Positions 3,754-13,030 of a DNA stretch of 32,437 nucleotides are shown here, piece by piece. The stretch's first letter is position 1; each line of letters opens with the position of its first letter. Origin of the DNA: Bacteroidota bacterium (lineage in GTDB: Bacteria; Bacteroidota; Bacteroidia; Chitinophagales; Chitinophagaceae); NCBI GenBank assembly GCA_004292605.1, contig RDXK01000110.1:1-32437 (forward strand). Direction: 5' to 3'. Below the pieces are notes generated by a model, which was not told the origin of the DNA, ran no database searches, and was given only the letters and a program-made list of their open reading frames with translations. The position numbers and the translations under genes were made by a program.

Positions 3754-5328
3754 TTATTGCTGGTTGATTTGTTTATATAAGGAAGCTAACTGCAGCCACC
3801 AATCTATAGTAGGTATTTCGGTACTTGGCGGTGCAAAACGCATGGTATTTATTTGTGTTACTAGCTGCTGCCATTGCTCCCAATCTTGTTCGGTAATATG
3901 GGGTGGTTTGTTTTTTGTTACTCGCCTTACTTGCTGCCATACATCTCTTGCATAGGCATCCGTTTGTACCGCAGCGGGAAGCTCTAGTGCTGGTAATGGC
4001 GTAGGTGCTGTGGGTGTATACGCTTGCCGCTGTATAGGTGCAGGAGTAGTAGTGGGTTTTACTTTTTTACCCTTTTGTGTAACTATGCCTATTACCACTA
4101 TTACGGCGGTTAAAACCAGAAGTAATAAAATAAATTGAAAGGGCTTATTGGTACTAGTAACAAGGCTGGTTTGCACCGCTACATCTTGCTGAATAATTAT
4201 TTTTGCAGCCGGTAGTTGCAGCTCGCTATAAGTACTATTTACGGTATTAAAATAGTGTAAACGTATGCCAGGTAAACTATCGGGTACAGGCTTTGTTTCC
4301 ACTAAAAACGGCAGCACTAATTTGCCTGCTTCAAAACTAAATTTATCCTTCTGCCATTGTATGCCCGGTACTATCGGGATACGTATATTTTCCACGGTAA
4401 ACTGGGCGGTGGTTTGCAGGCTTACACTGTACTGTCCTATATTTTGCTGTAGGCTAGCTTGTGGTTTTGCGGCAGCATAAAATTCGCCTATGGCATATTG
4501 TAGTGTATCGGTAGTAGGTAAGCTAGGTAAGGGTTTTATAAGGGCTACGGGGGCGTTTGACTGTACCGGTACATTTTGTTTACCCGCTGTAGTTTGTATA
4601 CTAAATACGGCTTCTAAAGTAGGAAGTGTAAAGTTGCCTTTGGCATTGGGCATTACGCAATAACTTGCTAGTAAAATTTTTTTCCAAACGGTTCCATTCT
4701 GTTGGTAATACTGCTCGGCAGTGTCGGTAGTAGCGGTTTGTAAACTTACATCGGCAGCACCCAATAAACGAGTATTTACTTGTGTACAAGCTACTTGGGT
4801 ATGTAGCCAATAGGTTACGGGTATTTGCTCGCCAGTGTAGTAGGTTTTGGGTTTAAAAACGGTTTGTATATATAATAATTTTTGTAAGCAAGGCAATGTA
4901 CCACAGGCGGCCACGCCGGGCAGTTGTGGCAGCAGTGGCAACTTGGCATTTTTATAGCTCTGCAGCTGCATAGTACTTACCAGCATACCGTGGGTGTGGT
5001 TCACTTGTAGTTGTGGTAGTTTTAGCGAGCCAGCAAATAAGGGCTCCACCGTGTACTGTATTTGTGCTTGTATAAATTTTTGGCCATCTATGGTGGTTCT
5101 AGTTTGGTTCCAGTCGGGCCCATTTATAATGGTGAATTGGTTGTGTAGTTTTAGTTCGCTGCCCACTATCTCGTTGGCACTTTGCACTTTATAAGTTAAT
5201 TGTAATTGTATACCATTCCATTGGCTTTTGGCTAGGTAAATGGTATCGCCAGCAAGGGCTGTAGTAGCACCCAATAGGCAAACCATACAGTAAAAAAAAT
5301 ACCTATAAAAACGGGCCAACTGCTGCAT
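3754..5328 (-). CDS. BatD-family (oxygen tolerance) membrane-anchored protein
   Basis: Protein of 524 aa. An N-terminal signal peptide (hydrophobic about 9-26, likely cut after ALA-26) is followed by a beta-rich exported part. The first repeat has LQLTYKVQSANEIVG, an NGPDW segment and TVEPLFAGSLKLPQLQV, the layout of BatD Ig-like domains; a second unit begins TYYTGEQIPVTYWL. A transmembrane helix lies at about 396-418, with a basic, proline-rich, probably cytoplasmic tail of about 105 residues. BatD proteins normally sit with BatA/B (VWA) and BatC/E (TPR) genes; none of those are next to this gene. The convergent response regulator ends one base away. Family assignment is by pattern and is moderate. 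Confidence 0.7.
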   Translation of the reverse strand: MQQLARFYRYFFYCMVCLLGATTALAGDTIYLAKSQWNGIQLQLTYKVQSANEIVGSELKLHNQFTIINGPDWNQTRTTIDGQKFIQAQIQYTVEPLFAGSLKLPQLQVNHTHGMLVSTMQLQSYKNAKLPLLPQLPGVAACGTLPCLQKLLYIQTVFKPKTYYTGEQIPVTYWLHTQVACTQVNTRLLGAADVSLQTATTDTAEQYYQQNGTVWKKILLASYCVMPNAKGNFTLPTLEAVFSIQTTAGKQNVPVQSNAPVALIKPLPSLPTTDTLQYAIGEFYAAAKPQASLQQNIGQYSVSLQTTAQFTVENIRIPIVPGIQWQKDKFSFEAGKLVLPFLVETKPVPDSLPGIRLHYFNTVNSTYSELQLPAAKIIIQQDVAVQTSLVTSTNKPFQFILLLLVLTAVIVVIGIVTQKGKKVKPTTTPAPIQRQAYTPTAPTPLPALELPAAVQTDAYARDVWQQVRRVTKNKPPHITEQDWEQWQQLVTQINTMRFAPPSTEIPTIDWWLQLASLYKQINQQ

Positions 5329-5382: not shown

Positions 5383-6597
5383 ATGCTATGGAATAATGTT
5401 ATTTGCAACCAAAGTGTGAAAGATCAGTTGGTGAGCATGGTTGAAAATAATAAACTAAGCCACGCTCTGTTGCTAGTAGGTAAGGAAGGCACCGCTGCAC
5501 TACCCCTAGCGCTAGCTTTTGCACAATATTTGGTAAGTATTCCTGCACCCGTGGCTGCGGTGGACGATTTGTTTGGCCCTGCACCCGCTGCCAGCGAAAC
5601 ACCCAGTTTTATTCATCCGGCAGATATTGCTACGCATCCGGCATCGGCTTCGGCTTTTTCTCGGGCCAGTCAGTTATTACATCCCGATTTACATATTACC
5701 GTGCCTACCATAACCCGTAAAACGGGCGAAAAACCAGTGAGCAGCCAGTTTATGGCGGAGTTTAGAAGCTTTGTACAGCAGCAGCCTTATGGCAATGTGT
5801 ACCAATGGCTTCAGTTTATTAAAGCAGAAAACAAGCAAGGAAATATCACCGCCGAGGAGTGCAACTAAATTATCAGGCGATTATCGCTCAAAAATTTTGA
5901 AAGCTTTTATAAAGTACAGTTGATTTGGATGGCGGAATACCTACACCAGGAAGGCAATAAACTGCTTAAAACCATTGAGGAACCTACCCCCAACACCATT
6001 ATTATTCTGGTAGCGGAAGATGATAGCAAGGTGCTCAACACTATTTTAAGTAGGTGTAGGCGAATTCAAGTACCAAAAATAGAAACTGCTCAATTGCAGG
6101 ATGCCCTGCAGCAGCAATTTGGTATACCCTCTACCGCGGCTCAAAATTTAGTGGCTTACGCACAAGGCAATATTAATACGGCGGTAAGTGCCGTAAAAAA
6201 TGGTGAGGTAGATAGTGAGTGGCTTCCGGCACTGCGTACATGGCTGAACATGCTAGTAAAAGGCAGCCAAACCCAGTGGCAGGAGTGGCTGGAGGTGCAG
6301 GCAAAATTAGGCCGTGAAAACCAAAAACAGTTTTTGCAGTATGTAAACCACATTTTTAGTCAGTGTTTGTACTTTCATATTAACCCTGCTTTACTACAAG
6401 TTACAGGTACCGAGGCTAAGCTGGTAGAAAAAATAGCCCTTTTTATTTCTGTGGCGGAATGTGAGGCCGCCATAGGCGAATTAGATAAGGCTGCCTACTA
6501 TATTGAACGGAATGCGAACCCAAAACTGCTATTTCATGCAGTAAGCATTAAGCTAAAGTATATTATGACGGAAAAAATTTTACTTTTGACGGAATAG
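5383..6597 (+). pseudogene. holB: DNA polymerase III delta' subunit, interrupted by one in-frame stop
   Basis: Two open stretches (5383-5865 and 5869-6597) are in the same frame and separated only by TAA at 5866-5868. Together they make one delta' protein of about 403 residues. The first part begins MLWNNVICNQSVKDQL and has the P-loop-like GKEGTAALPLALAFAQYL, then HPDLH and GNITAEECN. After the stop it continues IIRRLSLKNFESFYK and WMAEYLHQEGNKLLK, then IEEPTPNTIIILVAE and the clamp-loader SRC motif (NTILSRCRR). Delta' is an essential part of the clamp loader (AAA+ fold, no ATP hydrolysis). No frame change or missing segment is visible, so this may be a real nonsense mutation, a sequencing error, or a read-through case. 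The Cys zinc module usual between the P-loop region and HPDLH is also absent. Confidence 0.85.
5866..5868 (+). other. In-frame TAA within holB (codon 162)
   Basis: TAA stands where homologues have a residue between AEECN and IIR (from memory often Glu, Gln, Asp or similar). A single base change from GAA, CAA or AAA would explain it. Many other genes here end in TAA (yicC, gldH, the kinase, metF), so a genome-wide reassignment of TAA is excluded. Confidence 0.9.
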
Positions 6598-6796: not shown

Positions 6797-8233
6797 ATGG
6801 GTTGTGGTTCATGTGGTTCTGGCGGTTCTTGCGGCACGGGAAAACCCGGTGGCTGTAATAGCAATGGAGGTTGCAGCACTGGTGGCTGTAACCGTTTAAA
6901 CGTATACAATTGGCTTCAAAATATTCCTTTAGCATACCAAGATGCTGCTTGCACCGTGGTAGAAGTAAGTTTTAACCAAGGCAGTAGAAAAGAGTTTTTT
7001 AGAAACCAAACCGGTCAGTATTTTGAAAAAGGCACTTTAGTTACCGTAGAAGGTGTAGGCGGTTTTGATGTAGGTGAGGTGAGCCTGAGTGGCGAGCTAG
7101 TAAGGCTACAATTAAAGAAAGCCGGCGTTAAGGAAAACAATCCTGAAATAAAGAAAATACTACGCAAGGCTGGTGAAAAAGATATAGAACTATACAAACT
7201 GAATAAAGGCAAGCAAAAAGAAGCTTTGGCAAGAAGCCGTGCCGCTGCACGCCAGCTTAATTTAAACATGAAATTAAGCGAGGTAGATATTCAGGCGGAT
7301 GGTAAAAAAGCCACGTTTTTTTATACTGCAGATGATAGGGTAGATTTTAGAGAACTCATTAAAATATTTGCCAGCGAGTTTAAACTAAAGGTAGAAATGC
7401 GGCAGATAGGTATACGCCAAGATGCTGCTAAAGTAGGCGGTATTGGTAGCTGTGGCCGGGAGCTTTGCTGTAGTAGCTGGCTGCACGACTTTAAAAGCGT
7501 GAACACCACCACGGCACGTTACCAAAATTTAAGTATTAACCAAACCAAATTAAGTGGCCAATGTGGCCGTTTAAAATGCTGCTTAAACTTTGAACTTGAT
7601 ACGTATTTGGAAGCTTTTCATGCGTTTCCTGAAAATGCCGATGTATTGCAACTGGCCAATGGTACAGCCCATTTGCTAAAGAAGGATTTATTGAGAAACC
7701 TTTTGTGGTACAGCCTGCACGATGGTACTGGCAAACAACACCCAGTAACTATAGAGCGAGTAAAAGCCATACAGCGAATGAACCGCAATGGCGAAAAACC
7801 CGCCGAACTAGGTGCTTTAGAAACTGCAGGTGGTAAGGTAAAAGAAATAGAGCCACAGTTTGTGGATGTGGTGGGCCAAATAAGCCTACGCAGCCTAGAA
7901 CGCAACCAGCAAAAACGCCGCCGCGAAGAGCAAGACAGGCGCCGAGGCGACCAACGCAATAACAGAGATTTTAATAATAGACCCGATAATAACCGACCTA
8001 ATAACCGCTCCGATGCACGGCCCGATAACCGGCCGCCACGCCAGGCACCACCTAGAGATGCCAATGCACCAAGGCCCGATGCTGGAGCACCTAAAGCAGC
8101 AGGTACGCCTTTTCAAAACAGGCCACCAAAAGGGAACCGACCACCACAAAATGGTCCACGCCCACCAGCTAATAGGCCGCAAATAACCAAGCAGCCCAAG
8201 CCACCTGGCACGCCAGATGGTACTGCACAATAA
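6797..8233 (+). CDS. ricT: PSP1-domain protein, RicT/YaaT family
   Basis: Protein of 478 aa. Residues 1-32 are Gly/Cys-rich with six cysteines (3, 6, 12, 20, 26, 31). The PSP1 region runs from about 50 to 300, with conserved VVEVSFN, FEKGTLVTVE, VDFRELIKIFA and the cysteine signatures SCGRELCC (C219, C224, C225) and GQCGRLKCC (C256, C261, C262). In Bacillus the RicT protein forms the RicAFT complex, which carries Fe-S clusters and affects RNase Y activity; a similar role here is only inference. Residues from about 375 are a disordered tail rich in Arg, Asn, Pro and Asp. The gene follows holB after about 200 bases and may have its own promoter. Confidence 0.88.
   Translation: MGCGSCGSGGSCGTGKPGGCNSNGGCSTGGCNRLNVYNWLQNIPLAYQDAACTVVEVSFNQGSRKEFFRNQTGQYFEKGTLVTVEGVGGFDVGEVSLSGELVRLQLKKAGVKENNPEIKKILRKAGEKDIELYKLNKGKQKEALARSRAAARQLNLNMKLSEVDIQADGKKATFFYTADDRVDFRELIKIFASEFKLKVEMRQIGIRQDAAKVGGIGSCGRELCCSSWLHDFKSVNTTTARYQNLSINQTKLSGQCGRLKCCLNFELDTYLEAFHAFPENADVLQLANGTAHLLKKDLLRNLLWYSLHDGTGKQHPVTIERVKAIQRMNRNGEKPAELGALETAGGKVKEIEPQFVDVVGQISLRSLERNQQKRRREEQDRRRGDQRNNRDFNNRPDNNRPNNRSDARPDNRPPRQAPPRDANAPRPDAGAPKAAGTPFQNRPPKGNRPPQNGPRPPANRPQITKQPKPPGTPDGTAQ
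7905..8215 (+). repeat. Low-complexity coding tract (R/N/P/D-rich tail of the RicT protein)
   Basis: The last ~100 codons of the RicT-like gene encode repeated short units such as RPDNNRPNNR and RPDNRPPRQAPPR. The bias opens long spurious frames on the minus strand. It is a disordered protein tail, not a DNA repeat array. Confidence 0.7.
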
Positions 8234-9078: not shown

Positions 9079-9106
9079 CAGCGTGGCTTACCATTGTGGG
9101 AAATCC

Positions 9107-9294
9107 CTAAACTGTGTGGTAATTCGAACAATAACAGTCTACAATATAATTGCCTACTATCTTTTGGCTGTCAAAATCAAACCCTCTGACTGTTTATTCT
9201 TTACTTGGTTCCAAAACAATACTTCCGATAAATTACCTGCTTGCCTCAGCTGTTTTGCTCTTTCTTTAAGATTGGGATTGTAAGGTAATTTCAT
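9107..9294 (-). pseudogene. DUF559 endonuclease-like fragment, frameshifted and truncated
   Basis: From the ATG at 9294 the minus strand reads MKLPYNPNLKERAKQL, then NLSEVLFWNQVKNKQ, the start of DUF559 (Vsr-like, PD-(D/E)XK nuclease) proteins. The open frame then drifts into SEGLILTAKR and stops. Shifting by one base near 9187-9190 restores RGFDFDSQKIVGNYIVDCYC, the expected continuation, so one T seems lost from a TTC codon. The restored frame stops at 9107 after YCSNYHTV. The catalytic second half (the EIDG region and beyond) is missing. It is a dead remnant, fused upstream in frame to a methylase fragment through a hairpin repeat. Confidence 0.7.
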
Positions 9295-9344
9295 GTAGTT
9301 TTTGGTATTTCTACCAGCTTGAATTTCGGTGGCTTGTTCTATAG

Positions 9345-9390
9345 GGCGACCACCCCGTCCTACGGACACCCCTCCGGAGGAGGGGAATTT
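9345..9390. repeat. GC-rich double-hairpin repeat (PSSGGVSVGRGG-type)
   Basis: The stretch holds two short inverted repeats: GTCC/GGAC around TAC (9356-9366) and CCCCTCC/GGAGGGG around GGA (9369-9385). It is markedly GC-richer than its surroundings. On the minus strand it translates to PSSGGVSVGRGGR and joins the methylase fragment to the DUF559 fragment without breaking the frame. From memory, similar elements are scattered in Bacteroidota genomes beside DUF559 genes; copy number must be checked in the full genome. Confidence 0.6.
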
Positions 9391-9660
9391 TTCTGGCACA
9401 AAACTTAGTCCTAATTTTTTCGCTATTTCAGTTACTATTTCTGTGTTTAGATTAGGTATTCTATTCCCCTCTTTTGGAGCGGAAGGGTTGATTGCTATAG
9501 TTTGCTGTCCGTTAGTTTCACTATAACAATATAATGGAAATAGCATGCCACCTCCACTGTAAAACAAAGATTTCATCAGCGGAAAAACCGATATTTTAGA
9601 TGGCTTGTTATTCAAATCTTTTGCTACAAAAAAAATAATTTGTGCTGTGAGCCCCCGACC
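9388..9660 (-). pseudogene. C-terminal fragment of an N6-adenine DNA methylase (type ISP restriction-modification-like)
   Basis: The minus-strand frame is open from just after the GH3 stop and reads AQIIFFVAKDLNNKP, then GGGMLFPLYCYSETNGQQT, then IPNLNTEIVTEIAKKLGL and SFVPEK. The pattern FPLYxY-(P/S)ET-NGQQT followed by PNLNTEIV and a KLGL-FVPEK segment is what I recall near the C-terminus of type ISP R-M methylases, where a DILDYIYAVLHSP segment normally follows. That continuation is absent, replaced by the repeat and DUF559 piece. No methylase catalytic domain precedes it. The only in-frame starts (TTG 9615, later ATGs) would yield a non-functional stub. Family naming is from memory. Confidence 0.55.
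9466..9487. repeat. Second hairpin-like repeat inside the methylase remnant
   Basis: CCCCTC, TTTTG, then GAGCGG forms an imperfect inverted repeat, followed by AAGGG. It encodes the NPSAPKEGNRIPN stretch, which looks like extra sequence between NGQQT and PNLNTEIV of the methylase fragment. It resembles the common Bacteroidota CCCCTC...GAGGGG repeat with one mismatch. Low certainty. Confidence 0.4.
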
Positions 9661-12029: not shown

Positions 12030-12076
12030 ATAATACTTTATTTTGCAATGCTAAGGTTAGGCTTTAAATACAAAAC

Positions 12077-13030
12077 ATGAAAATTACGGAACATATTTCC
12101 CAAGCATCCTCCACCCTTTTATCTTACGAAATATTACCGCCATTAAAGGGTAAAACCATACAAAGTATTTACGACCATCTAGACCCGCTGATGGATTTTA
12201 ACCCCAGCTGGATAAATGTTACCTACCACCGTAGTGAAACCATGTTTAAAAAGAAGCTAGATAGCACTTTTGAAAAGGTGGAAGTGCGTAAACGCCCCGG
12301 TACCGTGGGTATTTGTGCCGCTATAATGAACCATTACAAAATAGATGCTGTACCGCATTTTATATGTGGTGGTTTTAATATGCGAGAAACCGAAGATGCC
12401 CTGATAGATTTGAATTTTTTAGGCATCGATAACGTACTGGTACTAAGGGGCGATGCTGCCAAAAACGAAGCCAGTTTTGAGCCAGAACCAGGTGGCCATA
12501 AATACGCTATAGAGTTACAACGCCAAGTGGTAAACCTAAACAATGGTGTTTACATAGATACCGATATACAAAACGGTGGTAAAACTAATTTTTGTGTGGG
12601 TACCGCCGGCTACCCTGAAAAACATTTTGAAGCACCCAATTTGGAAATAGATTTACAATACACAAAAGATAAGATAGATGCAGGTGCCGATTTTATAATG
12701 ACGCAAATGTTTTTTGACAATAAAAAGTTTTTTGAATACGTAGCTGCCTGTAAACAAGCGGGTATTAACGTGCCTATTATTCCGGGTTTAAAACCTATTA
12801 CCAATAAAAAACAATTATCTGTACTGCCCAGAATTTTTCATGTAGATATTCCTACAGAATTATCTACCGCCATTATGAAGTGTAAAACCGATGAGGAGTG
12901 TGAAATAGTGGGCACAGAATGGCTGGTGCAGCAAAGCAAGGAACTAAAAGCGGCGGGTGTGCCCGTACTGCATTACTATACACTAGGTAAACCAAAGGTG
13001 ATACGTAATGTGGTAAAAGAAATATTTTAA
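12077..13030 (+). CDS. metF: Methylenetetrahydrofolate reductase
   Basis: Protein of 317 aa. It reduces 5,10-methylene-THF to 5-methyl-THF with FAD, feeding methionine synthesis. The N-terminal strand has LSYEILPP, with E18 matching the catalytic glutamate of the (beta/alpha)8 barrel. VLVLRGD (120-126) holds the aspartate near the flavin, and DAGADFIMTQMFFDN and PIIPGLKPI are typical later motifs. The length is family-like. It is divergent from lptB, with 70 bases between the starts, and ends at a hairpin terminator shared with the convergent gene. No methionine synthase gene or riboswitch is seen beside it. Confidence 0.94.
   Translation: MKITEHISQASSTLLSYEILPPLKGKTIQSIYDHLDPLMDFNPSWINVTYHRSETMFKKKLDSTFEKVEVRKRPGTVGICAAIMNHYKIDAVPHFICGGFNMRETEDALIDLNFLGIDNVLVLRGDAAKNEASFEPEPGGHKYAIELQRQVVNLNNGVYIDTDIQNGGKTNFCVGTAGYPEKHFEAPNLEIDLQYTKDKIDAGADFIMTQMFFDNKKFFEYVAACKQAGINVPIIPGLKPITNKKQLSVLPRIFHVDIPTELSTAIMKCKTDEECEIVGTEWLVQQSKELKAAGVPVLHYYTLGKPKVIRNVVKEIF

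Follow-up and report, generated by a model that had tools for sequence, protein, structure and literature searches.

The holB locus

The stretch of DNA that we analysed (the window) is one whole contig of 32,437 bases (C294). It is one of the 331 contigs of a draft genome that totals 2.97 Mb and is 98% complete and 0.16% contaminated. The frame at positions 5383–6597 on the forward strand is holB, the gene for the delta' subunit of DNA polymerase III, and it contains one in-frame TAA (Table 1). The reading frame is thus interrupted, and the identity of the gene rests on the remaining sequence.

Table 1. Features of the holB locus, with positions in the window
Feature	Position	Strand	Remarks
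holB (delta'), first part, 161 codons before the in-frame stop	5383–5865	+	PF13177 positions 3–44
In-frame TAA, codon 162	5866–5868	+	Sense codon in 29/29 relatives' loci and 80/80 named loci
holB remainder, 242 codons in the same frame and natural stop	5869–6597	+	PF13177 positions 91–160; conservation undiminished
PSP1-domain protein gene	6797–8233	+	PF04468; same neighbour near holB in relatives

The two halves of the gene match separate portions of the PF13177 domain (161 profile positions), each over the cut-off of 27 bits, with scores of 27.9 bits for the upstream half and 67.5 bits for the downstream half (5869–6594). For either half, the highest-scoring NCBIfam model is TIGR00678, the holB family (28.6 bits upstream and 85.6 bits downstream); the halves were scored separately and each lies below the cut-off of 180.6 bits, which is one for the whole protein. 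All 242 codons past the TAA are free of stops, whereas none of 3000 first-order Markov sequences of the same composition stays open over this length. An earlier note, made from the letters of the window, had described a single in-frame TAA inside an otherwise intact holB and a family match that resumes past it. Both descriptions are borne out, since the two halves match the family within one frame and the downstream half contains no further stop.

For comparison, we used 80 named holB loci, which are the best 80 of at least 518 relatives and carry titles that include Chitinophagaceae, Sediminibacterium and many metagenome assemblies. To judge by such titles, the studied bacterium is probably a member of the Chitinophagaceae. 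A tblastn search of these loci, each taken with up to 1.5 kb of flanking sequence, finds a PSP1 match near holB in 70 of the 80 and no match to the upstream neighbour (3754–5328, reverse strand). Because both halves match PF13177 and the PSP1 neighbour is shared with relatives, the locus looks like an ordinary holB locus. In sequence, length and PSP1 neighbour, the studied gene is like the known holB (PF13177, TIGR00678) of Chitinophagaceae and their relatives; it differs from theirs in having an in-frame TAA at codon 162, where they have a sense codon.

Codon 162 in relatives

A second set for comparison consists of 29 aligned relatives. Here, 36 relatives were matched, and seven without a locus were left out (six with holB and one with a weak match only). 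At least one contig occurs in both sets. At the codon 162 site, the 29 relatives have Asp (14), Glu (11), Asn (2), Ala (1) and Ser (1), and the 80 named loci have Asp (31), Glu (29), Gln (10), Ala (4), Asn (2), Arg (2), Tyr (1) and Ser (1). Asp or Glu therefore occupies the site in 25 of the 29 relatives and 60 of the 80 loci. The comparison of this codon in relatives, which the earlier note had proposed, thus yields a sense codon in 29 of 29 and 80 of 80 cases and a stop in neither set, and the aligned parts of the 80 named loci have no internal stop at all. Since the residue at the site varies among relatives, the site appears to be free of strict constraint.

The congener G001, the sole other genome in the genus search, has a holB that is 48% identical and carries a sense codon at the site. 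In genome G004, a TGA is the last aligned codon of the holB match, and in G031 a TAA lies outside the aligned part of an 80-residue holB stretch. A scan of genome contigs that used only the N-terminal half of holB as query found no relative.

We also searched the genomes of the family with a 261-residue holB query. At E 1e-25 or better, 142 of 147 genomes match, three of them covering the query only partly. Within the aligned part of the query, an in-frame stop is present in two of the 142, namely, this genome and G127; among the 129 good-quality genomes, this one is the only case. Both stop-bearing genomes are fragmented (2 of 60 genomes with at least 100 contigs versus 0 of 82 with fewer), a contrast that is too small to carry much weight.

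G127 is a 69%-complete draft, and its in-frame TAA falls within the same 43-residue stretch of holB (G127:C78:8554–8682, reverse strand). This stretch makes up 43 of the 261 residues, which puts the chance of two stops lying so close at about one in six. The site context E-C-x-codon-I is present in 105 of 109 relatives' loci, and contig C78 of G127 has no match to the corresponding pattern E-C-x-stop-I, so that the TAA of G127 is very probably a different codon from codon 162.

Conservation past the stop

The studied gene was compared with its relatives at conserved alignment columns on either side of the TAA. At columns shared by 85% or more of the relatives, it agrees at 22 of 24 positions before the stop and at 43 of 48 after it; with the limit set at 70%, the corresponding counts are 28 of 34 and 62 of 80. 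The drop in agreement across the stop (0.02 to 0.05) lies inside the spread of the 29 relatives when these are tested alike, and codon scores are gene-like on either side of the TAA. To an equal degree before and after the stop, many relatives in the same family have a better-conserved holB, which marks the studied gene as that of a diverged lineage.

In conserved columns, open frame and codon score, there is no sign of decay past the stop. Since the coding frame is undecayed, the TAA either arose recently, is not real or is passed over in translation.

Reading of UAA in the host genome

TAA is a common terminator in this genome, as the earlier note had remarked for the window: it ends 298 of the 423 open frames that are 250 codons or longer. 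Matches over the cut-off exist for both release factors, RF1 and RF2. In the RF2 match there are two stops, both upstream of the main frame and at the usual frameshift site. We take the motif, a Shine–Dalgarno-like AGGAGG before CTTTGAC, to be that of the programmed frameshift of prfB; it is found on contig C90 (L108, about 12062–12130, forward strand). prfB and holB are alike as conserved genes of this genome that are broken by an in-frame stop, but translation of prfB changes frame at a slip site, whereas holB keeps one frame throughout.

The tRNA survey scored 150 of 169 first-look candidates and covers the content of the draft. It yielded 33 tRNA matches, all of which were assigned, and none has an anticodon that reads UAA. 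An altered genetic code was accordingly rejected on stop usage, tRNAs and release factors. An RNA signal for read-through was rejected as well: the fold around the stop is like that of shuffled sequences (z-score of −0.28, with 79 of 200 shuffles folding as well or better), and no stimulating structure is apparent in it.

These data bear on the reading in which UAA is passed by programmed or constitutive read-through, owing to a suppressor tRNA, an altered code or a recoding signal, and both a full-length and a short delta' are made. An intact and conserved frame past the stop is what such a mechanism would leave, and the in-frame TAA of G127 falls within the same 43 residues of holB. Nevertheless, none of the three marks of programmed read-through that we looked for is present here, be it a stop conserved in relatives (none in the 29 and 80 loci), a suppressor tRNA or reassigned code, or a stimulating RNA structure; RF1 and RF2 are present, TAA ends most long frames, and the contig of G127 lacks a site pattern that nearly all relatives' loci share in its sense form. 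We consider read-through, which the earlier note had listed among its readings, to be very improbable. A wider version, in which some Chitinophagaceae tolerate a read-through UAA in the middle of holB and produce short and full-length delta', with this genome (G000) and G127 as independent cases within the same stretch, would be more improbable still.

Copy number and clamp-loader partners

A protein search of the host genome returned the holB studied here and one weak match, which lies in an open frame of 628 residues and is probably dnaX, a name that we infer. A second holB, suggested in the earlier note, was thus not found by this one search of a 98%-complete assembly. holA gives one match over the cut-off, which is free of stops, and three weaker matches.

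A plain pseudogene accompanied by an intact second holB elsewhere would explain the stop, and the copy could fall in the part that a 98%-complete draft is missing. Set against this, the search gave only the present gene and the probable dnaX, and the downstream neighbour is that of an ordinary holB locus; we regard a second copy as hardly to be expected.

holB is normally an essential gene, and loss of delta' is lethal in E. coli. The complex tau3-delta-delta' is described as the core or minimal clamp loader, with delta' included (PMC3290774, section 8). One reduced symbiont is listed in PMC2175510 as lacking holA, holB and dnaX together, a case that differs from the host genome here.

In-frame stops elsewhere in the genome

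We read about 890 kb of the host genome (61,888 Ns included) against a comparison set of 772 open frames, which were taken from the relative G023 (38 stretches). Taking the best non-overlapping match per place, with the E-value limit loosened from 1e-15 to 1e-10, we obtained 146 homologous segments that comprise 48,369 residues and contain three stops. Two of these lie in the first residues of the alignment and probably precede the start, and we therefore judge the holB TAA to be the sole stop inside a gene among the 146 segments. Before overlap filtering, the best alignments (E limit 1e-15) contained 47 stops; those inspected outside holB, among the matches listed, were taken for antisense shadow frames. 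Frameshifted homologous pairs were not found against the G023 frames, where six pairs share a query and none is adjacent in different frames.

Two further scans used the sequence of the host itself. The first found 1030 stops with an open frame on both sides; the stops of holB and of a second gene, on contig C289, are among the 45 listed; about 29 junctions, mostly with a start codon directly after the stop, rank above them. The second scan, by codon score, found 539 stops after gene-like sequence; 60 open codons follow in 62 of these cases, and 38 of the 62 look coding in the same frame. In three of the 38, holB included, the first possible start is at least 17 codons away, and holB alone of these three scores clearly past the stop. 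The C289 stop is absent from the 38.

The C289 stop is a lone in-frame TAA (L132:1551–1553, forward strand) in the gene for a secreted protein of 494 + 596 codons, which carries a T9SS C-terminal sorting domain. Partial matches to this protein are present in 3 of 60 other family genomes, in open frames of 1142, 717 and 401 residues, and none of the three reaches the position of the stop.

Origin of the stop

The stop in holB is lone and undecayed, the gene is single copy and its product belongs to a core complex. On these grounds, we prefer the explanation that the TAA is a wrong or minority base in the draft consensus rather than new biology, and give it a probability of roughly 0.66. A base-calling error, low coverage or a strain mixture would have introduced the TAA into the consensus of a fragmented assembly, which is probably metagenomic in origin. 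In the living population, the product of holB would then be a single, normal protein of 404 residues that serves as delta' in the clamp loader. That one holB was found, and that holA is single over the cut-off and uninterrupted, supports this explanation. So do the open frame of the probable dnaX, the sense codons of the aligned relatives at the site and the rarity of such stops in this genome. Against it, the assembly is not visibly rich in errors and yields no frameshifted homologous pair, the TAA on contig C289 may mark a real pseudogene, and on both sides of the stop the conservation of this holB is below that of many relatives in the family.

Sporadic nonsense calls are a known blemish of draft assemblies. 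The holB stop is like them in being single, in the intact frame and conservation around it and in its occurrence in a fragmented draft. It differs from established cases in that the error, a base that is not the true or the major one, is here what we infer. Our literature search on sporadic nonsense calls in draft assemblies returned nothing.

The second-best reading is a real and very recent nonsense mutation in the sequenced strain or in some of the population; it might be tolerated thanks to a low level of natural read-through, to internal restart or to a copy in the 2% of the genome that the assembly misses. The second lone TAA, on contig C289, indicates that real nonsense changes may occur in the strain, and in-frame start codons lie 17 and 20 codons past the holB stop. 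However, a protein that ended at the TAA would lack the second half of PF13177 and everything after it, delta' is part of the minimal clamp loader as described in the cited section of PMC3290774, the sequence past the stop has not decayed and the search found no second copy. We therefore consider such a mutation unlikely, albeit far from negligible. Perhaps the same start codons, a putative TTG at 5920 and a putative ATG at 5929, would allow restart and thus two working proteins, but the cut falls within the PF13177 domain.

From the list of readings in the earlier note, an error or strain mixture and a recent nonsense mutation fit best, while a second copy and programmed read-through are left unsupported. 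If the TAA were real and fixed, the bacterium would either live without an intact delta' or read UAA as sense, and both would be remarkable. Our analysis points instead to a wrong or minority base and hence to an ordinary blemish of a draft genome. Its main use is as a warning for annotation, in which this holB would be split in two.

A remnant on the same contig

Further along the window, on the reverse strand at about 9105–9615, lies a remnant whose recognisable reading changes frame near 9190, so that it looks frameshifted. The open reading frame 9157–9615 within it has no Pfam match; by eye, the remnant resembles what we take to be a DUF559-type endonuclease gene.
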